Source of the DNA: Chitinophagaceae bacterium
Lineage (GTDB): Bacteria; Bacteroidota; Bacteroidia; Chitinophagales; Chitinophagaceae
NCBI GenBank assembly: GCA_019745155.1
Contig: JAIETM010000002.1
Coordinates: forward strand, 1-64,000
Direction of reading: 5' to 3'
Length of the DNA stretch: 64,000 bases
How positions within the stretch are numbered: the stretch's first letter is position 1; every line of letters begins with the position of its first letter. The notes below the pieces were generated by a model, which saw only the letters and a list, made by a program, of their open reading frames with translations, was not told the DNA's origin and made no database searches. Shown piece by piece: positions 27,622-36,691 of the stretch. A program made the translations under genes and the position numbers.

Positions 27622-27725
27622 ATTATAGCTTATACATCAAAAAAAATTATGGCATATGCGAAATGTCATTTTTTACGGGAATTTTTTTTCGCTAACTTGT
27701 CCGTACACTAAATGTGATTCGCATT

Positions 27726-28076
27726 ATGGGTGCCGCCTCCATGATTGTTTTGATTCTTGCAGCTTTGGCCTTCTCGGGTTTTGCGGTACTTATTTCAAAA
27801 GCATTATTGAAAGCCACGAAAAATCCCCAGAAAGGAGAAGCGTACGAGTGCGGTATTCCCACACAGGGTAAAACCTGGGTACAGTTTAATGTGGGCTATT
27901 ATTTGTTTGCACTCATCTTTTTGATTTTTGATGTAGAGCTGGTTTTTCTCTATCCCTGGGCCGTGGTAGCCAAAGCCACCGGTTGGCTGGCATTAGTTGA
28001 AATCATCATTTTTCTATTCATACTCTTCATGGGCTTTTTATATGCACATAAAAAAGGCGCTTTGAAATGGGTATGA
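27726..28076 (+). CDS. nuoA: Complex I subunit NuoA
   Basis: The 116-residue membrane subunit has three predicted helices. The loop segment [13 protein letters not shown] between helix 1 and 2 contains the conserved ECG motif of NuoA, which lies near the quinone channel. The protein begins with the ATG at 27726; a GTG at 27714 is also possible. It is the first gene of the nuo operon, 100 bases behind the terminator at 27596-27621. Confidence 0.93.
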
Positions 28077-28089
28077 GTTAACTTATAAA

Positions 28090-28647
28090 TTGTTCTGCTT
28101 GCAACCGATCTCTTCTTCAGCAGCCAAACAGGCCGGATTTCCCGGCGAGGTGCATGAAACACCTGGTGGTGGCGTCGTGCTCAGCAAGCTGGACGACCTC
28201 ATTAACTGGGCACGCTCCAACTCTTTGTGGCCTTTGACTTTTGCTACCAGTTGTTGTGGTATTGAGATGATGGCCGTAGCTTCTGCCAAATATGATTTTT
28301 CCCGTTTTGGTTTTGAAGTGGCGCGCGCTTCTCCCCGTCAGGCCGATGTGATCATCATCGCTGGTACCATCGTGAACAAAATGGCGCCGGTATTAAAGCG
28401 ATTGTATGATCAGATGGCCGATCCCAAATACGTGATTGCGATGGGTGCCTGTGCAATCAGCGGTGGTCCATTTTTTTACAACACATATTCGGTAATCAAA
28501 GGTGCAGACCATATTATTCCTGTGGATGTGTACATCGCAGGTTGTCCGCCCAGACCAGAAGCTTTGCTGCATGCATTGATAACGCTGCAGGAAAAAATCA
28601 AGAAAGGATATACGAGAGAACAAATCAGACAAGGATCAAACACTTAA
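28090..28647 (+). CDS. nuoB: Complex I subunit NuoB
   Basis: The 185-residue soluble subunit carries the N2 [4Fe-4S] cluster next to the quinone site. Cluster ligands are visible as the tandem Cys in TSCCGIEM, the Cys in GACAISGG and the Cys in AGCPPRPE. The frame begins with TTG at 28090, since no in-frame ATG precedes the tandem Cys; 13 bases separate it from the nuoA stop. A short Gly-rich stretch (HETPGGGVV) precedes the conserved domain. Confidence 0.95.
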
Positions 28648-28648
28648 T

Positions 28649-29101
28649 ATGAACAACGAAGCCCTGCAGGCAATCCTCACCGAACAAGTTCCAGACGCCA
28701 CTTTTGACACTAGTGGTGAATGGCTCAATGTTCAAGTAAGCGTTGCAGCGTTTCGCCCGCTTGCAGAAAAGTTGAAGAAAGAATTACAGTTCAATTTTCT
28801 TTTCTGTCTTACTTGTGTTGATTGGAAAACACATTTGACTATGGTGTATCACCTGCGTTCAACACAGGAAGGACATCATTTGGTGGTGAAAGTGAATTTG
28901 GATACACAGCAACCACAAATACACACGGTGTGTGATTTATGGCGTACTGCAGAATTTCATGAGCGTGAAGTGTATGAGTTGTTTGGAGTGGATTCTCTGC
29001 AACATCCTGATTTGCGTTTGCTGATTCTTCCGGATGGATGGGAAGGAAAGAATCCGCTGCGGAAAGATTTTGATGATCCTGTAAACATGATCAAACTATA
29101 A
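28649..29101 (+). CDS. nuoC: Complex I subunit NuoC
   Basis: The 150-residue peripheral-arm subunit has the 30-kDa subunit pattern, including FCLTCVDWKTH, the WRTAEFHEREVYELFGV block and the end block LPDGWEGKNPLRKDF. It packs against NuoD and NuoI in the Q-module. It is separate from NuoD, unlike the fused NuoCD of some bacteria. The ATG follows the nuoB stop by one base. Confidence 0.95.
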   Translation: MNNEALQAILTEQVPDATFDTSGEWLNVQVSVAAFRPLAEKLKKELQFNFLFCLTCVDWKTHLTMVYHLRSTQEGHHLVVKVNLDTQQPQIHTVCDLWRTAEFHEREVYELFGVDSLQHPDLRLLILPDGWEGKNPLRKDFDDPVNMIKL

Positions 29102-29122
29102 ACATCCCGCGTAAGCGGAACT

Positions 29123-30259
29123 ATGTATCAAACTACCGACATACTGGTGAACGAAACCGCCAATGACCCCATGGGTCAGATGGTGATCAATGTGGGTCCA
29201 CAACACCCGGCAACGCATGGTGTGTTGCATCTGGTGATTACATTGAATGGAGAAACGATTCAGAAAGTAGAACCACACTTAGGCTATATCCATCGCTCCA
29301 TTGAGAAAATGTGTGAGAGTCTTACTTATAGACAGTTCATTTATGTAACGAGCCGGATGGATTATCTCTCATCACATATCAATAACCACGCCTGTGCTCT
29401 ATGCGTTGAAAAAGGTTTGCAGGTAGAAGTACCAGAACGTGCGCAGGTGATACGTGTGTTGATGGATGAACTCACACGCATTGCCTCACATGAGTTGTGG
29501 TGGGGTGCGATGGCCATGGATTTGGGTGCGTTTACGCCATTCTTTCACGCATTTCGCGAAAGAGAAACAATTAATGATATCATGGAAGAGACCTGCGGCG
29601 CCAGATTAACCATGAACTATATGGTGCCCGGCGGTGTGATGCATGATATTCATCCCAACTTTCAAAAAAGAGTGAAGGATTTTCTGCAACTCTATAAGCA
29701 GAAGATTCATGAATACGATGAGCTGGTTACGGGCAATATTATTTTCCAAAACCGAATGAAGGGCGTTGGGTATATATCACCGGAAGATGCCATCTCTTAT
29801 GGATGCTCTGGTCCTGTTGCGAGAGGCAGTGGCGTGAGTTGCGATGTGCGCAAGCATTTTCCTTATGAGATTTACGATAAGCTGCAGTTTGATGAAGTGC
29901 TGGAAACAGCAGGCGATTCATTTGCGCGTTATCTGGTGCGTGTGAAAGAAATGCATCAGTCGGTGCGCATTGTTGAGCAGTTGATCGACAATATTCCGGA
30001 AGGTGATTTTCAGGCTAAGACCAAAGCGGTGTTGAAATTGCCAAAAGGAGAATTTTATCAGCGCGTAGAAACGGCACGTGGCGAATTAGGTGTATACATT
30101 GTGAGTGAAGGAGGAACAACGCCGTATCGTATCAAGTTTCGTTCACCCGGATTTTCCAATCTTTCTATTCTCGATCATATGACGCGTGGCAGTAAGATTG
30201 GCGATCTGGTTGCAGCGATGGGGACATTAGATTTAGTGATACCAGATATAGATAGGTAG
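29123..30259 (+). CDS. nuoD: Complex I subunit NuoD
   Basis: The 378-residue subunit forms the quinone cavity with NuoB. The N-terminal NVGPQHPATHGVLHLV holds the conserved quinone-binding His motif, followed by EPHLGYIHRSIEKM, the RMDYLS stretch and the C-terminal SPGFSNLSILDHM. The stop at 30257-30259 is followed almost at once by the left arm of the S23 element. In 14-subunit operons nuoE, nuoF and nuoG would come next. Confidence 0.96.
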   Translation: MYQTTDILVNETANDPMGQMVINVGPQHPATHGVLHLVITLNGETIQKVEPHLGYIHRSIEKMCESLTYRQFIYVTSRMDYLSSHINNHACALCVEKGLQVEVPERAQVIRVLMDELTRIASHELWWGAMAMDLGAFTPFFHAFRERETINDIMEETCGARLTMNYMVPGGVMHDIHPNFQKRVKDFLQLYKQKIHEYDELVTGNIIFQNRMKGVGYISPEDAISYGCSGPVARGSGVSCDVRKHFPYEIYDKLQFDEVLETAGDSFARYLVRVKEMHQSVRIVEQLIDNIPEGDFQAKTKAVLKLPKGEFYQRVETARGELGVYIVSEGGTTPYRIKFRSPGFSNLSILDHMTRGSKIGDLVAAMGTLDLVIPDIDR

Positions 30260-30261
30260 TT

Positions 30262-30862
30262 GTTGGTTGATTGTTACTAGTTGCTAGTTAGTGGTTGAGG
30301 GTTAGATTGTAAAATGTTTTTAAACTAAAAATGAATAAGAAAAGGAAGAATAAATAATCAGTTGTTATTGTTTGATAAAAGCAGCGATTATTATGGCTAC
30401 AGTAAAAAGGTTTGAAGACTTAGAGGTTTGGCAACAGGCTAGAAAGCTGGCAACAGCTATTTATCAGCTCACCAGTAATGGAACAATTGTAAAAGATTAT
30501 GAGTTGGTTAAACAAATGAATAGATCGGTAGGATCGATTATGGATAATATAGCAGAGGGGTTTGATAGAGGAGGAAAGCGGGAGTTTATTCAGTTTTTGG
30601 CTATTGCTCGAGGATCGTGTGCCGAGTTGAAGTCGCAGTTGTATAGGGCTTTAGACCGAAAACACATTGGTGAAGAGATAATGAAACAAGCATATGAACA
30701 AATAGAAGCGATAACAAGAATGATCAGCGGGCTAATCAAGTATCTTAATAACAGTAATATAAAAGGCAACAAATATCAAGATCAAAAAACATAACAAAGA
30801 ACAAAAAGCAGACAACAAAAAACCAGAAACCCCAAACTACTAACCATAAACCACCAACCAAC
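30262..30862 (+). mobile_element. Putative S23 (four-helix-bundle) element with inverted arms
   Basis: Between the nuoD stop and the nuoH start lies a unit of about 600 bases. Its left arm (30262-30306) is rich in G and T with repeated GTTAGTGGTTG-like stretches, and its right arm (30827-30862) is rich in A and C with the complementary pattern. The ends match exactly as GTTGGTTG at 30262-30269 and CAACCAAC at 30855-30862. The single gene inside encodes an S23-type four-helix-bundle protein. The layout recalls intervening sequences of 23S rRNA, in which an S23 reading frame sits within a stem. No transposase is present, so mobility is inferred. Confidence 0.55.
30393..30794 (+). CDS. Four-helix-bundle protein, S23/IVP family
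   Basis: From the ATG at 30393 the protein has 133 residues. It shows the S23 ribosomal-intervening-sequence family pattern: FEDLEVWQQARKLATAIYQL, then QMNRSVGSIMDNIAEGFDRG and EFIQFLAIARGSCAELKSQLYRA. Family members form four-helix bundles and are found inside 23S rRNA intervening sequences or as orphan genes; a related protein (Avd) accompanies diversity-generating retroelements, but no reverse transcriptase is here. It interrupts the nuo operon in the same direction, with lower GC than the nuo genes. Its cellular role is unknown. Confidence 0.9.
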   Translation: MATVKRFEDLEVWQQARKLATAIYQLTSNGTIVKDYELVKQMNRSVGSIMDNIAEGFDRGGKREFIQFLAIARGSCAELKSQLYRALDRKHIGEEIMKQAYEQIEAITRMISGLIKYLNNSNIKGNKYQDQKT

Positions 30863-30864
30863 TT

Positions 30865-31941
30865 GTGATTTCTTTTTCAGACATAGCAACCCAAATAGAC
30901 AGCTGGCTCAACGCACAGTTTGATCCAACCATTGCCTTGTTGATTGAAGGCGTGATCATTGGTGTTGCAGCGATTGGCTTGTTTGCGGGATTAGGTTTGG
31001 TATTGGTGATCATGGAACGTAAAGTGTCTGCATGGATGCAGATTCGTTTGGGACCTAACCGTGTTGGTCCGAAAGGTTTGTTGCAATCATTAGCTGATAC
31101 GGTGAAATTGTTGGTGAAAGAGGGACTTACACCAAGTGGTTCAGATAAATTTTTATTCAACCTCGCACCGTTTATTGCCATGATCGCTGCTATGCTGTTG
31201 TTGGCACCTATTGGCTTTGCACGTAACCTGTATATTTGGGATTTGAATATAGGCGTACTCTATGTTGCTGCTATTTCCTCTATCTCAGTTATTAGTGTGT
31301 TGATGGCGGGTTGGAGTAGTAATAATAAATATTCTTTGCTAGGTGCAATGCGCAGTGGCGCACAGATTGTGAGCTATGAATTATCTGCAGGTTTATCAAT
31401 TCTTACCATCGTGGTATTGACGGGTAGTTTGCGCGTCTCTGATATCATCATGGCGCAGGAAAATGGCTGGTGGATTTTTAAAGGGCATATTCCAGTGATC
31501 ATTGCCTTTATCATTTTCCTCATCGCAGCTACCGCTGAAACCAATCGTGCACCTTTTGATTTGGCAGAAGCTGAATCAGAATTAACTGCGGGCTTTCACA
31601 CTGAATACTCGGGTATGAAGTTCGCGTTGTTCTTTTTGGCTGAATACATCAACGTCTTCATTGTATGTGCGATGGGCGCTACGCTATTCTTAGGTGGATG
31701 GATGCCTTTCCATATTGGTGGCTGGACTGGCTTCAATACCATCATGGATTATATTCCATCCAGCATTTGGTTCTTTGGCAAAACATTCTTCCTGATTTTC
31801 GTGATGATGTGGTTTCGCTGGACCTTCCCGCGTTTGCGGATTGATCAGTTGCTGAACCTGGAATGGAAATACTTATTGCCGATAGGCATGGTGAATATTT
31901 TATTGGTAACCCTTATCGCCATCATGGGCTGGCATTTTTAA
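30865..31941 (+). CDS. nuoH: Complex I subunit NuoH
   Basis: The 358-residue membrane subunit has about eight helices and joins the Q-module to the pump arm. Typical motifs are MERKVSAWMQIRLGPNRVGP, the loop AETNRAPFDLAEAESELTAG and FRWTFPRLRIDQLL. The start is GTG at 30865, two bases past the right arm of the S23 element, so insertion of the element may have replaced the original leader and start region. Confidence 0.95.
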   Translation: MISFSDIATQIDSWLNAQFDPTIALLIEGVIIGVAAIGLFAGLGLVLVIMERKVSAWMQIRLGPNRVGPKGLLQSLADTVKLLVKEGLTPSGSDKFLFNLAPFIAMIAAMLLLAPIGFARNLYIWDLNIGVLYVAAISSISVISVLMAGWSSNNKYSLLGAMRSGAQIVSYELSAGLSILTIVVLTGSLRVSDIIMAQENGWWIFKGHIPVIIAFIIFLIAATAETNRAPFDLAEAESELTAGFHTEYSGMKFALFFLAEYINVFIVCAMGATLFLGGWMPFHIGGWTGFNTIMDYIPSSIWFFGKTFFLIFVMMWFRWTFPRLRIDQLLNLEWKYLLPIGMVNILLVTLIAIMGWHF

Positions 31942-31950
31942 ACGCAGACT

Positions 31951-32427
31951 ATGTTCTTAAAAGAGTACATCAGGAATATCGCAGGCGGATTGAAGTCGCT
32001 GGTAACCGGTATGCGCATGACGGGTTATTATTTTACCCATCATAAAGAAATCATTACCCAGCAATATCCAGATAACAGAGATACGCTGGAATTGCCCGAA
32101 CGTTTCAAGGGTGAAGTAGTGATGCCGCACAATGAGCACAATGAACATCGTTGTACAGGTTGTACAGCTTGCGAACTGGCTTGTCCCAATGGAACCATCA
32201 AAGTCATCACCAAGTTTGATGTAACACCGGAAGGCAAGAAGAAAAAAGCGATTGATAAACTCGTCTATCACCTGGAGCTCTGCACCATGTGTAATCTCTG
32301 CGTGGAAGCTTGTCCCTCAGACGCCATCAAAATGGCGCAGACATTTGAGCACAGTGTGTTCGATCGCAATCAGCTGACCAAAGTATTGAATAACCCCGGC
32401 TCTAAAATCATGGAAGGTGTAGAATAA
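31951..32427 (+). CDS. nuoI: Complex I subunit NuoI
   Basis: The 158-residue ferredoxin-like subunit carries clusters N6a and N6b. Two complete motifs are seen: CTGCTACELACPNG near residue 69-82 and CTMCNLCVEACPSD near residue 111-124. In an EFG-less complex these clusters are the likely entry for electrons from a soluble donor. The gene ends in TAATG overlap with nuoJ. Confidence 0.95.
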   Translation: MFLKEYIRNIAGGLKSLVTGMRMTGYYFTHHKEIITQQYPDNRDTLELPERFKGEVVMPHNEHNEHRCTGCTACELACPNGTIKVITKFDVTPEGKKKKAIDKLVYHLELCTMCNLCVEACPSDAIKMAQTFEHSVFDRNQLTKVLNNPGSKIMEGVE

Positions 32428-32957
32428 TGGATGCAGCAACGATCATATTTTATTTGTTGGCCGCAATGACGCTTGGTAGTGCTTTGTTGGCTGTTACCAG
32501 CAGACAGATATTTCGCTCAGCTATCTATTTGTTGTTTTCGCTGATTGGTATTGCGGGTATTTATTTCTGGCTGGATTATGCTTTCATTGCTGCCGTACAA
32601 ATTGTGGTGTATGTAGGTGGTATTGTGGTCTTGATTATCTTCTCCATTTTTCTAACCCAACAAGCGGGTGAGGATTTACCTAAACCAAAATGGACGCAAC
32701 AACTGTTTGCCGCATTAGCAGCATTCTGTGGCTTTGCTTTGGTATTGGTACAAATACTGCAATATGGTTTTACAGAAGTAACACAAACAGGTACAGCGGA
32801 AGAAGATCGTATTGGTCGGTTAATGCTGAGCACGGGCGAAGGTGGTATGGCTTTTCCATTTGAATTGGTGAGTGTGCTGTTATTAGCAGCCATGATTGGC
32901 TGTATTGTAATTGCGATGCGCAAATCAAGTAATGAATCATCTGCAATAGAATCATAA
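32427..32957 (+). CDS. nuoJ: Complex I subunit NuoJ
   Basis: The 176-residue membrane subunit has five predicted helices. The segment VQIVVYVGGIVVLIIFSIFL near residue 56 matches the conserved central helix with the pi-bulge of NuoJ. The ATG overlaps the nuoI stop by one base. The C-terminal tail is polar (RKSSNESSAIES). Confidence 0.93.
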   Translation: MDAATIIFYLLAAMTLGSALLAVTSRQIFRSAIYLLFSLIGIAGIYFWLDYAFIAAVQIVVYVGGIVVLIIFSIFLTQQAGEDLPKPKWTQQLFAALAAFCGFALVLVQILQYGFTEVTQTGTAEEDRIGRLMLSTGEGGMAFPFELVSVLLLAAMIGCIVIAMRKSSNESSAIES

Positions 32958-32958
32958 C

Positions 32959-33267
32959 ATGATCGGACTCGAACACATATTATTCATCAGTACTGCTTTG
33001 TTCTTCTTGGGTATTTATGGATTTCTTACCCGCAGAAACCTCATCACCATGTTGATGAGTGTAGAACTCGTCCTGAATAGTGTTAACCTGAACTTTATCG
33101 CTTTTCATAAATATCTATGGCCCTCTGGAATGGATGGTGTTTTCTTCACGGTGTTTGTGATTGCCATTGCAGCAGCAGAAGCAGCTGTGGCCATTGCCAT
33201 CATCATCAACTTATATAAAACACACCGCTCCATTCTGGTAGATACCGCCGAAGAGTTGAAGTATTAA
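32959..33267 (+). CDS. nuoK: Complex I subunit NuoK
   Basis: The 102-residue subunit has three helices like the Mrp antiporter subunit MrpC. Helix 2 contains the conserved Glu in MLMSVELVLNSVNL and helix 3 the second Glu in AIAAAEAAVAIAI; both form the proton path. It starts one base after the nuoJ stop. Confidence 0.95.
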   Translation: MIGLEHILFISTALFFLGIYGFLTRRNLITMLMSVELVLNSVNLNFIAFHKYLWPSGMDGVFFTVFVIAIAAAEAAVAIAIIINLYKTHRSILVDTAEELKY

Positions 33268-33276
33268 ACAAACCTT

Positions 33277-35196
33277 ATGCTGAGTGCAACCAATATAGCC
33301 CTGATTCCTCTACTGCCATTGCTTGGCTTTGTTTTGCTGAGCCTCTTTGGCAAACAACTCAAACCATTTGCAGGAGTACTCGCTACAGTGTTGATCCTTG
33401 TTTCTGCTGTTCTGACGGGAGGTGCTGCTTGGACCTATTTTTTTGCCAACGGCAGGGTGAATGATGTTTATCAAACAATCATTCCATTGAACATCGAATG
33501 GTTGCGTTTTAATGATCAGCTGTCTATTCAGATGGGTTTGTTGTTAGATCCTATTTCTGTGATGATGTTGGTGGTGGTTACCCTGATTAGTTTGATGGTG
33601 CATATTTATAGCAATAGTTATATGCATGGTGAAAAGCGCTTCGCCACCTATTTTGCTTATCTGCAATTATTTACTTTTTCCATGTTGGGACTGGTGCTGG
33701 CCACCAATATTTTTCAAACCTATTTCTTTTGGGAGCTGGTGGGTGTATCCTCTTTTCTGTTGATTGGTTATTACTATGATAAGCCATCTGCGGTTGCAGC
33801 TTCTAAAAAAGCATTCATCGTTACGCGCTTTGCGGATCTGGGTTTCTTAATTGGAATTCTGGTCTTGAGTTTCTATGGAGGCTCATTGGATTTCCAGACA
33901 TTGATACAACAACTCACCACACCACATACACCCGCATTAGATGCGGCAAACAAAGCCAGTTTCTTAGGTGTATCTGCTTTAACATGGGGCTTGTCGCTCG
34001 TGTTTATCGGTGGTGCAGGTAAGAGCGCATTATTCCCATTACATATCTGGTTACCCGATGCAATGGAAGGTCCTACACCAGTATCGGCTTTAATCCACGC
34101 AGCAACCATGGTGGTAGCGGGTGTTTACTTAGTAGCAAGATTGTTTCCAATTTATGCCATCAGCGCGCCTGAGCTGTTAGCAGCAATTGGATGGGTTGGC
34201 GCAATATCTGCGGTGATTGCAGCACTTATCGCTTGTACACAAACCGATATTAAAAGGGTGTTGGCTTACTCTACCATGAGCCAGATTGGTTACATGATGT
34301 TTGCCTTGGGTGTATCAGGTTATGGCGGCGAGGCCGGATTGGGCTTCACGGCTTCTATGTTCCACCTTTTCACACACGCCTTGTTTAAAGCATTGTTGTT
34401 CTTGGGTGCGGGTGCAGTGATTCACGCAGTGCATAGCAATGAAATGCATGATATGGGCGGACTCAGAAAGCAAATGCCTATCACACATATTAGTTTCCTG
34501 ATTGCTTGTTTGGCGATTGCGGGTGTACCACCACTATCCGGTTTCTTCAGCAAAGAAGAAATCTTGTTAGCGGCTTATCAAAACAATACACCGATTTATT
34601 GGATAGCGCTGATCACTTCCGGTCTTACTGCTTTTTATATGTTCCGTTTGTATTTCCGCATCTTCTGGAACAAACCACATACTGGTCATGCACACGAAGC
34701 AAGTGCGATCATGTGGTTACCATTGGTGCTCTTGGCCGTTGGTGCAGCATTCGCGGGGTTGATTCCATTCGGTGAGTTGGTGAGCAGCGACGGAAAAGCA
34801 TTACACAGTGAATTGCATCTCAGCTTCTCTATTGCACCAGTAGCTTTGGGCGTGTTCGGTATCTTGATAGCCGCATGGTTGTATGGCAAGCAGAATGCAA
34901 AGCCTGCAAGTATTCAAAGCAGTTTGGGTGGATTATTTCAAGCGGTGTACCACAAATTGTATATCGATGAGTTGTATCTCTTCCTGACCAAATCTGTTGT
35001 ATTTGCACTGATTGCTAAACCAGCCGCATGGATTGATCAACACATCATCAATGCAGCAGTAAATGGTTCGGCATCCATCACACAAAAAATTTCTAGCAAT
35101 ATCAAAACCTGGCAATCAGGTAAGGTGCAGGAGTATGGATTGTATTTTTTAGGTGGTGTAATTGGTTTAGCCGTATTGGTATTGTATATCTGGTAA
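33277..35196 (+). CDS. nuoL: Complex I subunit NuoL
   Basis: The 639-residue antiporter-like subunit lies at the far end of the membrane arm. Conserved features include FFWELVGVSSFLLIGYYYDK with the key Glu, the KSALFPLHIWLPDAMEGPTPVSALIHAATMV block of antiporter subunits with its Lys and His, and a long C-terminal amphipathic helix region (GGLFQAVYHKLYIDELY) ending in a last membrane segment. Its length is normal for the family. Confidence 0.96.
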   Translation: MLSATNIALIPLLPLLGFVLLSLFGKQLKPFAGVLATVLILVSAVLTGGAAWTYFFANGRVNDVYQTIIPLNIEWLRFNDQLSIQMGLLLDPISVMMLVVVTLISLMVHIYSNSYMHGEKRFATYFAYLQLFTFSMLGLVLATNIFQTYFFWELVGVSSFLLIGYYYDKPSAVAASKKAFIVTRFADLGFLIGILVLSFYGGSLDFQTLIQQLTTPHTPALDAANKASFLGVSALTWGLSLVFIGGAGKSALFPLHIWLPDAMEGPTPVSALIHAATMVVAGVYLVARLFPIYAISAPELLAAIGWVGAISAVIAALIACTQTDIKRVLAYSTMSQIGYMMFALGVSGYGGEAGLGFTASMFHLFTHALFKALLFLGAGAVIHAVHSNEMHDMGGLRKQMPITHISFLIACLAIAGVPPLSGFFSKEEILLAAYQNNTPIYWIALITSGLTAFYMFRLYFRIFWNKPHTGHAHEASAIMWLPLVLLAVGAAFAGLIPFGELVSSDGKALHSELHLSFSIAPVALGVFGILIAAWLYGKQNAKPASIQSSLGGLFQAVYHKLYIDELYLFLTKSVVFALIAKPAAWIDQHIINAAVNGSASITQKISSNIKTWQSGKVQEYGLYFLGGVIGLAVLVLYIW

Positions 35197-35206
35197 AAGC
35201 AAGCAC

Positions 35207-36691
35207 ATGAACTTACTCTACATATTAGGCATTCCATTACTAACAGCGTTGCTGCTGCTGGTGATGCGTTCGCCCGACTGGATCAGGCGCACAGCACTGT
35301 ATGGTGCATTGCTGCAATTGGGGATGGTGGTTTGGTTATTCATTGCCTATCAGCAACAGCGCACGATGGGATATGCGATGGCTGCCTTCTTTGAACAGAA
35401 CTATGCTTGGTTTAGTGTGTGGAATATTCATTTCCATATTGGTGTGGATGGTATGTCCATTGCGATGATGTTGCTCACAGCGTTTGTGGTATTGGCGGGA
35501 GTATTGGTTTCCTGGAATGTACAGCGCATGGTAAAAGAGTATTATTTTTTGTTATTACTCTTGTCATTCGGGGCTTATGGCTTTTTCATGTCGCAAGACC
35601 TGTTGCTTTTATTCTTCTTCTTAGAAATAGCCGTGATTCCTAAATACCTACTTATTGCAGTTTGGGGTTCAGGTAATAAAAACTATAGCGCCAATAAACT
35701 GGCTTTAATGTTGATGGGCGGCTCTGCACTCATCTTTGTAGGCATACTCGGTATTTTCTACGCAACGCCTGCCGATCAGCGCAGTTTTGATATCCTGCAA
35801 TTGGCTAACCAACAATTGGGCCCAGGTTCACAGAAGATTATCTATCCCTTATTGTTTGGTGGATTTGGCGTGTTCTCTGCATTGTTTCCTTTTCACACCT
35901 GGGTGCCTGATGGTCACTCTTCTGCACCAACAGCGGGTTCTATGTTTCTGGCGGGTATTTCTATGAAACTCGGTGGTTATGGTTGTTTGAAAGTAGCTAC
36001 ACTCTTATTACCTGAAGGCGCTAAGGTTTATGCTGATCTGGTGATTGCACTTTCTGCTATTGCCATTCTATATGGGGCTTTTGCTACGCTTATCCAGAAA
36101 GACCTCAAGTATATGAATGCGTATTCATCCATTAGTCACTGCGGATTTGTATTACTCGGTATTGGCATGCTCACGAAAACTGCATTCAATGGTGCAGTCT
36201 TACAAATGGTGTCACACGGTTTGATGACAGCACTTTTCTTCGCCGTGATTGGTATGATTTACGAAAGAACACATACACGTACGATTGCGGAGATGGGCGG
36301 TTTATTAAAAGTGATGCCTTTTGCTGTTACTGCTTTGTTCATCGCGGGTCTTGCTTCGCTTGGTTTGCCCGGACTCAGCGGTTTTGTGGCAGAGATGACG
36401 GTATTTGTTGGTGGATGGGAGCATCAAGACATCTATCATCGTGCCGCAACAGTGATTGCCTGTATGTCGATAGTGGTTACTGCAGTCTATATTCTTCGTG
36501 CAATTGGTCAGGTGGCGATGGGTCCGATAAAAGAAAACTTTGCATCACTGCAGGATGTGGCTTGGTATGAGAAAATGGCTGCGGTGGTCTTGATTGCAGG
36601 TATGCTGGCCATGGGCTTAGCACCACAATGGTTGAATGAATTGATTCAGCCATCTACTCAATTCATCATGGATAAACTGGCTGCCAAATGA
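35207..36691 (+). CDS. nuoM: Complex I subunit NuoM
   Basis: The 494-residue antiporter-like subunit shows the key Glu in LFFFLEIAVIPKYLLI, the block PFHTWVPDGHSSAPTAGSMFLAGISMKLGGYG and QKDLKYMNAYSSISHCGFV. It pumps protons in the middle of the arm. The last four bases overlap nuoN (ATGA), indicating coupled translation. Confidence 0.96.
   Translation: MNLLYILGIPLLTALLLLVMRSPDWIRRTALYGALLQLGMVVWLFIAYQQQRTMGYAMAAFFEQNYAWFSVWNIHFHIGVDGMSIAMMLLTAFVVLAGVLVSWNVQRMVKEYYFLLLLLSFGAYGFFMSQDLLLLFFFLEIAVIPKYLLIAVWGSGNKNYSANKLALMLMGGSALIFVGILGIFYATPADQRSFDILQLANQQLGPGSQKIIYPLLFGGFGVFSALFPFHTWVPDGHSSAPTAGSMFLAGISMKLGGYGCLKVATLLLPEGAKVYADLVIALSAIAILYGAFATLIQKDLKYMNAYSSISHCGFVLLGIGMLTKTAFNGAVLQMVSHGLMTALFFAVIGMIYERTHTRTIAEMGGLLKVMPFAVTALFIAGLASLGLPGLSGFVAEMTVFVGGWEHQDIYHRAATVIACMSIVVTAVYILRAIGQVAMGPIKENFASLQDVAWYEKMAAVVLIAGMLAMGLAPQWLNELIQPSTQFIMDKLAAK

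Follow-up and report, generated by a model that had tools for sequence, protein, structure and literature searches.

Why does an S23 gene, of the kind found in 23S rRNA intervening sequences (IVSs), sit between nuoD and nuoH in an otherwise tightly packed run of genes? In the window (the whole 64,000-nt stretch of DNA analysed here, from the Chitinophagaceae genome G000), the nuoD stop codon TAG lies at 30257-30259 and the nuoH start codon GTG at 30865. The gap between them is 605 nt, whereas the other gaps among the genes listed from 27714 to 36691 measure only −1 to 21 nt (nuoD and nuoH were identified by profile, the remaining nuo names by eye from ORFs). A reading of this DNA made from the letters alone (the sequence-only reading) had noticed a single S23-type gene in this gap, and the profiles bear it out. 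The ORF that starts with ATG at 30393 and ends with the stop codon at 30792-30794 encodes a protein that matches PF05635 with 121.1 bits (curated cut-off 33.8) and TIGR02436 with 114.4 bits (cut-off 24); of the three NCBIfam models that match, TIGR02436 alone exceeds its cut-off. The only Pfam domain is 23S_rRNA_IVP, and neither a transposase nor a recombinase domain was found in the protein. Lying between nuoD and nuoH, the gene is not within a 23S rRNA gene, and no Rfam family matched positions 29000-32000 at gathering cut-offs. The features of the junction are as follows.

29123..30259, forward strand: nuoD, the upstream host gene (PF00346, E = 2.3e-93; ORF)
30257..30305, forward strand: left arm, seven degenerate heptads (TAGTTGT TGGTTGA TTGTTAC TAGTTGC TAGTTAG TGGTTGA GGGTTAG)
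30393..30794, forward strand: S23 / 23S_rRNA_IVP gene, 133 aa (PF05635, E = 2.9e-35; TIGR02436, four helix bundle protein)
30821..30862, forward strand: right arm, six degenerate heptads (AACCAGA AACCCCA AACTACT AACCATA AACCACC AACCAAC)
30865..31941, forward strand: nuoH, the downstream host gene (PF00146, E = 1.1e-118; ORF)

The two ends of the gap had also been read as complementary arms. Paired in register, positions 30262-30303 and 30821-30862 are complementary at 30 of 42 positions (71%), and none of 2000 dinucleotide shuffles of both arms reached this value (maximum 26 of 42), which confirms the arms and, together with the PF05635 and TIGR02436 matches, supports the assignment to S23 units of the 23S rRNA intervening-sequence kind. 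The terminal words of the arms are GTTGGTTG and CAACCAAC. A feature absent from the sequence-only reading is that both arms are heptad repeats: the frequency of matches at lag 7 is 0.60 on the left (30257-30308) and 0.68 on the right (30816-30862). The arms abut the host genes closely, with the nuoD stop codon inside the first left-arm heptad, TAGTTGT, and the nuoH GTG start two bases past the end of the right arm. On the gapped score that we used for the survey below (the complementarity of the 400 nt before a gene with the 300 nt after it), the window's arms are moderate, at 14, compared to a 95th percentile of 12 and a 99th percentile of 15.5 in swapped pairs. In three genomes of the window's genus we found no second full copy of the unit; a left-arm-like stretch of 31 nt occurs at G000:C11:95147, with no S23 in the sequence inspected. 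With arms this weak, the window's unit may be a copy that is ageing or no longer active.

To place the unit among its relatives, we collected 122 S23 loci from 40 genomes of the window's family, taking the better-scoring loci, such that weak S23s are under-sampled. Arms were scored in 120 of these (the flanks of L051 and L101 were too short). The median arm score was 18 in S23 loci vs. 9 in swapped pairs; 78 of the 120 loci scored at least 16, compared to 0.98% of swapped pairs, and in 72 of the 120 the locus's own right side was the best partner of its left side. Among control genes, 6 of 376 reached a score of 16 (this set includes the window's S23), as did 1 of 85 control genes of similar length, by eye a repeated tRNA region. 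The arms of the 78 high-scoring loci have a period of 7, with a match frequency of 0.604 at lag 7 vs. 0.307 in shuffled arms (z = 33), 0.557 at lag 14 and 0.505 at lag 21 (shuffled 0.31), and their left arms are poor in C (9.9%). Aligned arms are mostly 20-40 nt long. Agreement between the arms was 87% in register vs. 66% after a 7-nt slide, and the in-register alignment was better in 67 of 71 loci. Since the in-register match beats a slide by one heptad, the arms look like a copied pair and more than just two arrays of one word. Eukaryotic foldback elements likewise enclose a gene between inverted ends that consist of short tandem subrepeats, although their genes are unrelated to S23.

The search for further S23 genes with the same arms, which the sequence-only reading had proposed, succeeded for the genes and failed for the arms: G000 contains seven S23 genes besides the window's, and the arms differ at each locus. 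Across the survey, a single arm sequence per genome was rejected, as swaps within the same genome scored at least 16 in 0.6% of 462 cases, and swaps between different genomes in 1.0% of 13,818. Arms are thus private to each locus and complementary only within it. The S23 gene was co-oriented with both neighbours in 101 of 120 loci vs. 149 of 290 controls, and in these 101 loci the median distance to the neighbouring gene was 75 nt upstream and 47 nt downstream.

We then compared the sites in close relatives, namely a sister species (G002, approximately 95% DNA identity around nuoD) and a more distant genome (G001). The empty site that had been suggested as a check on the nuo unit was nearly found: in G002, 25 nt separate nuoD from nuoH, with no S23 gene. 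G002 retains, before nuoH, the heptads AACCATT AACCAAA AACCAAC, which resemble the window's right arm. With these three heptads in place, the difference at this site may reflect either a loss in G002 that left an arm behind or a gain in G000. More widely, in the 92 of 96 nuoD loci in which nuoH was readable (4 were left out), only the window's own nuoD-nuoH junction contained an S23 match. This count bears on the reading of the S23 gene as a fixed, immobile accessory gene of the nuo operon accompanied by a regulatory intergenic hairpin. Such a reading would fit the purifying selection on S23 (dN/dS of 0.09-0.37 in four ortholog pairs) and the old age of some S23 sites, but with S23 present in 1 of 92 readable junctions and the other S23 genes of G000 lying in unrelated operons, we consider it very improbable. 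Several other nuoD-nuoH junctions hold small hairpins of their own, as judged by eye. A stretch close to gtgcgacgcaac recurs in the junctions L017, L237, L183, L241 and L254 and is possibly another repeat family, and L212, L197, L252 and L241 contain complementary stretches resembling CCCCTAAAGGGG, another class of intergenic hairpin.

The eight S23 genes of G000 are intergenic in all flanks read, and their proteins are 16-51% identical to one another. Four of the eight sites (L002, L005, L006 and L007) are filled in both G000 and G002, and at the other four (L001, L003, L004 and L008) S23 is absent from the orthologous site in G002. S23 units have therefore been gained or lost between close relatives. 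In G001, S23 is missing at L004 and L008, and also at the L002, L005 and L007 sites. As both G002 and G001 are without S23 at L004 and L008, and the L008 site is an overlapping stop/start, TAATG, in both relatives, these two sites are most simply explained by gain in the G000 line. The best evidence of gain or loss and the best examples of arms come from different units: those missing in G002 score 14, 10.5, 13 and 9.5, and only 3 of the 8 G000 loci score at least 16. The junctions of the relatives were too diverged for a target-site duplication to be read. By profile, the host junctions include hisD-hisC (L002), argD-acetylornithine carbamoyltransferase (L003) and hisA-hisF (L004), and the L006 unit lies upstream of hypD. 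The sequence upstream of the L007 S23 gene is identical in G000 and G002 over the aligned part; we take this adjacent sequence to be a probable SRP RNA gene.

Of the traits of a DNA transposon, inverted repeats and presence/absence at orthologous sites were found, whereas a transposase domain was not. A transposase acting from elsewhere could be of the Y1 (RAYT/IS200-like) type, mobilising the units in the manner of REP elements, and G000 does contain 6 Y1_Tnp matches. Of these six loci, four were read: nearby repeats at two of them are simple palindromes unlike the S23 arms, and the other two lack an arm match (scores 9.5 and 10.5). As the S23 arms also differ from locus to locus instead of forming one palindrome family, we give this explanation hardly any credence. 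The Y1 genes at L357 (G000:C3:58572) and L359 (G000:C13:1404) are flanked by simple palindromes, for example CCGCGGACTAAAGTCCGCGG, and resemble REP/RAYT sets.

How often S23 units move can be gauged from shared sites. Of the 122 loci, 66 fall into 21 groups that share the same two neighbours, and one site, argC-argD by the profiles at L044, is common to 11 genera. In a protein tree of S23 (without L098 and L059), the site groups require 22 label changes, compared to a minimum of 20 and a mean of 50 after shuffling, such that shared-site groups are mostly one S23 clade each. Many S23s keep their site from genus to genus, so sites are often old and movement is rare. The same clades also turn up at other sites. 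L003 (G000:C3:95768) lies at argD-carbamoyltransferase, the S23 closest to it in the tree, L070, is a member of the argC-argD group, and the argC-argD junction of G000 is short and has no S23, which suggests a short hop to the next junction downstream within the arginine operon. Two S23 units at unrelated sites of G006 (L146 and L152) have common arms and a 455-nt block with 80% DNA identity. This pair was rejected as a recent copy, since a dS of 1.64 makes the copy old. The G006 arms recur at further sites, at least five of which (L275, L278, L280, L281 and L286) are hairpins of approximately 100 nt with no room for an S23 gene, resembling the non-autonomous copies of transposons.

We further compared arm words between related S23 proteins, retaining the 95 of 120 loci with an arm score of at least 13 (25 were dropped) and pairs of S23s that are at least 55% identical, come from different genomes and share no flanking homolog. 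In 92 such pairs from 57 loci, arm similarity was 10.02 vs. 4.88 in shuffled pairings (sd 0.24), a value that none of 1000 shuffles reached. With the largest (GTGAA) clade removed, the similarity was 8.13 vs. 4.87 (sd 0.28; 47 pairs; 0 of 1000 shuffles). The words of two different clades are, for example, TCGTGAG at L126 and AGCTATG at L076. There was no such link for the inner spacer between arm and gene (6.19 vs. 5.97, sd 0.25; 67 pairs) or for the DNA outside the arms (5.82 vs. 5.88, sd 0.21; 84 pairs). As unconstrained DNA is no longer alike at such protein distances, the arm word must be held by something. The word tracks the S23 clade across genomes and sites, and the neighbouring DNA does not, so the simplest cause is that the S23 protein probably recognises the arms of its own element. 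When the comparison was confined to the phylum set (17 loci with arms), the link was not significant (9 pairs; 5.51 vs. 4.99, sd 0.71). Exceptions are some pairs that involve L107, L067 and L092, and the word changes within one site group at L053 (site A) and at L050 and L073 (site C). An initial statement that related S23s have unrelated arms, drawn from L132/L139 and L096/L107, was overturned by the full test, with L096/L107 remaining an exception. The window's S23 falls below the 55% limit of the test, as its closest relative is at most 51% identical; compared to L118 (51% identity), its arm similarity is 5.9 (95th percentile 6.8), with no clear likeness.

The link between word and protein also weighs on another explanation, under which heptad hairpins commonly occur between genes anyway and their loops simply offer S23 genes a place to settle. 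Hairpins without S23 do exist: 12 of 185 gaps of 50-400 nt contain one at a score of 16, some of them heptad-like by eye (this count is made within a gap and thus differs in geometry from the arm count around a gene), and further examples are found in several relatives' nuoD-nuoH junctions and in the mini hairpins of G006. However, a pre-existing host hairpin would not follow the S23 clade, as the arm word does, in place of merely the site. Genes other than S23 seldom lie between such arms (the 6 of 376 controls), and no hairpin was seen by eye at the empty L003, L004 and L008 sites, though the arms of those units are weak. We therefore regard this explanation as unlikely. Instead, we slightly favour the interpretation that the nuo unit is a mobile element, a small insertion of the S23/IVS type in which an S23 gene lies between terminal inverted repeats made of degenerate heptads.

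The model of the window's S23 (pLDDT 93.6) has four long helices in the S23/Avd fold. In a re-check restricted to Foldseek's own ranking of structural neighbours, it superimposed on 2gsc with Z = 19.4 (rmsd 1.3 over 114 residues) and on 2rld with Z = 17.6 (rmsd 2.1 over 111 residues), and on Avd with Z = 14.6 (4dwl) and 14.4 (8ub8) at 11% sequence identity. Avd belongs to diversity-generating retroelements and has the same fold; in G000, however, no RVT_1 match was found (a search of this genome only, whose assembly is 97% complete), which speaks against a reverse-transcriptase route there. The glutamate E55 is invariant across 50 aligned sequences. The solved relative 2gsc has five chains, and the title of its paper, as given in the reference list of PMC3936711, speaks of five four-helix bundles.

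If the unit is a mobile element, it might work as follows. Lying in the sense direction between operon genes, it would allow the host promoter to express S23. The S23 protein, whose solved relative is an assembly of five, would bind the heptads of its own element and thereby mark the ends for copying or insertion. We know of no catalytic domain in S23, so it would be an end-binding protein, with the cutting left to an enzyme of the host or one supplied in trans. Insertions between a stop and a start codon would survive because they break no gene, and the RNA stem of the arms may be cut as in rRNA IVSs.

This last step can also be taken as an explanation in itself: an intervening sequence at the RNA level. 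Here the arms would fold into a stem within the polycistronic mRNA, and cleavage of this stem by RNase III would free the S23 piece and separate the nuoD message from that of nuoH. This explanation is compatible with a mobile element, and both may hold. We folded 79 elements, i.e., 78 picked for strong arms plus the window's. In the minimum free energy (MFE) structure, the arms were paired over at least half of the left arm in 73 of 79 elements vs. 8 with swapped right arms, which is in line with RNA processing, as is the rRNA IVS of Coxiella burnetii, with its S23 gene, its 28-bp stem and its heptamers, which is cut by RNase III (PMC4990558). The fold of the nuo unit itself, which the sequence-only reading had put forward as a check, goes the other way: the window's arms are unpaired in the MFE structure and the whole fold has a z of −0.07, although as two free strands the arms pair better than shuffled ones (−30.8 vs. 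−21.8 kcal/mol, sd 3.7; 8 of 300 shuffles were as low). In addition, arm mismatches show no preference for G-U (79 G-U vs. 68 A-C, p = 0.41), which would be unexpected under selection for an RNA stem. Processing of the nuo mRNA in this way is conceivable, with a probability that we put noticeably below even. Given the unpaired arms of the window and the lack of a G-U preference, we lean to the view that S23 reads the arms as ends of DNA; RNA processing may come in addition.

In the Coxiella IVS, as described in PMC4990558, tandem GACAGAT heptamers precede the S23 start, the terminal stem is 28 bp long, and the S23 ORF is decaying and probably not expressed. The nuo unit resembles this IVS in that S23 lies in the loop of complementary ends, in sense with the host transcript. 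The differences are the host, which is an operon junction, the locus-specific arrays of degenerate heptads, and the purifying selection on S23 where it was tested. The survey of rRNA insertions in PMC11270868 reports this ORF from insertions in both 16S and 23S rRNA of CPR bacteria, where some insertions carry ORFs and others none. Thus, the S23/IVS kind of element is known; new are its large-scale home in protein operons, heptad arms that are private to each locus, and an arm word that goes with the S23 clade. In the open-access literature, a scope outside which most subscription journals fall, we found no report connecting S23 genes to heptad arms in operons.

S23 genes are widespread, with PF05635 present in at least 45 of 60 genomes of the family and at least 90 of 118 genomes sampled across the phylum. 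In other Bacteroidota, heptad arms with a score of at least 16 were found in 10 of 30 loci (swapped pairs, 0.6%). A tblastn search with the window's protein returned no S23 match in phage records. On plasmids, relatives occur in 23 records, mostly cyanobacterial; of the 15 loci read, 8 scored at least 16 (4.8% of 208 swapped pairs) and six scored 12.5 or less, with arm words such as TAGGGAG, AACAGGG and AGGTGAC. Intergenic seven-base tandem repeats are known in cyanobacteria as STRRs. The intergenic TAACTGA and related heptamer repeats of Beggiatoaceae, which occur also in cyanobacteria and Bacteroidetes, among others, are likewise seven-base tandem units between genes (PMC4679880); the main text of that paper mentions neither S23 nor four helix proteins.

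A wider proposal, which we advance as speculative and doubtful, is that S23 forms a five-fold assembly that reads sequence, with each clade having its own heptad and approximately one word per subunit. Without help from any known transposase, it would spread short inverted-repeat elements through the operons of several phyla. The rRNA IVSs and the hairpins that consist of arms only would then have this one system as their source, and so, perhaps, would the classical heptamer repeats of cyanobacteria and Beggiatoa. In 2016, what S23 intervening sequences do and where they come from was still called unclear (PMC4990558); an arm word linked to the protein makes this a question of binding. Such a word would also supply one source of the heptad repeats between bacterial genes, and would show an element spreading in operons without a known transposase.

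The same family is found in cas loci, again at operon junctions: PMC3936711 counts 18 23S_rRNA_IVP genes among the functions in cas loci, and a legend in PMC10910872 mentions 23S_rRNA_IVP at such loci. Two of our 15 plasmid loci lie in cas operons, with S23 between cas6 and cas4 on plasmid pANA02 of Anabaena sp. 90 (L366, arm score 28) and between cas10 and a Cmr3-family gene on a plasmid of Picosynechococcus sp. PCC 7003 (L373, score 14.5). Whereas PMC3936711 treats S23 as a cas-locus function, the heptad arms seen here suggest insertion, and caution is warranted, as S23 genes considered operon-associated may be insertions and not functional partners.

Finally, G000 encodes a second, distant NuoD-like protein (40% identity) at G000:C4:217502-218317, and similar proteins occur in many relatives; on account of this second protein, G000 may have two gene sets of the complex I type.
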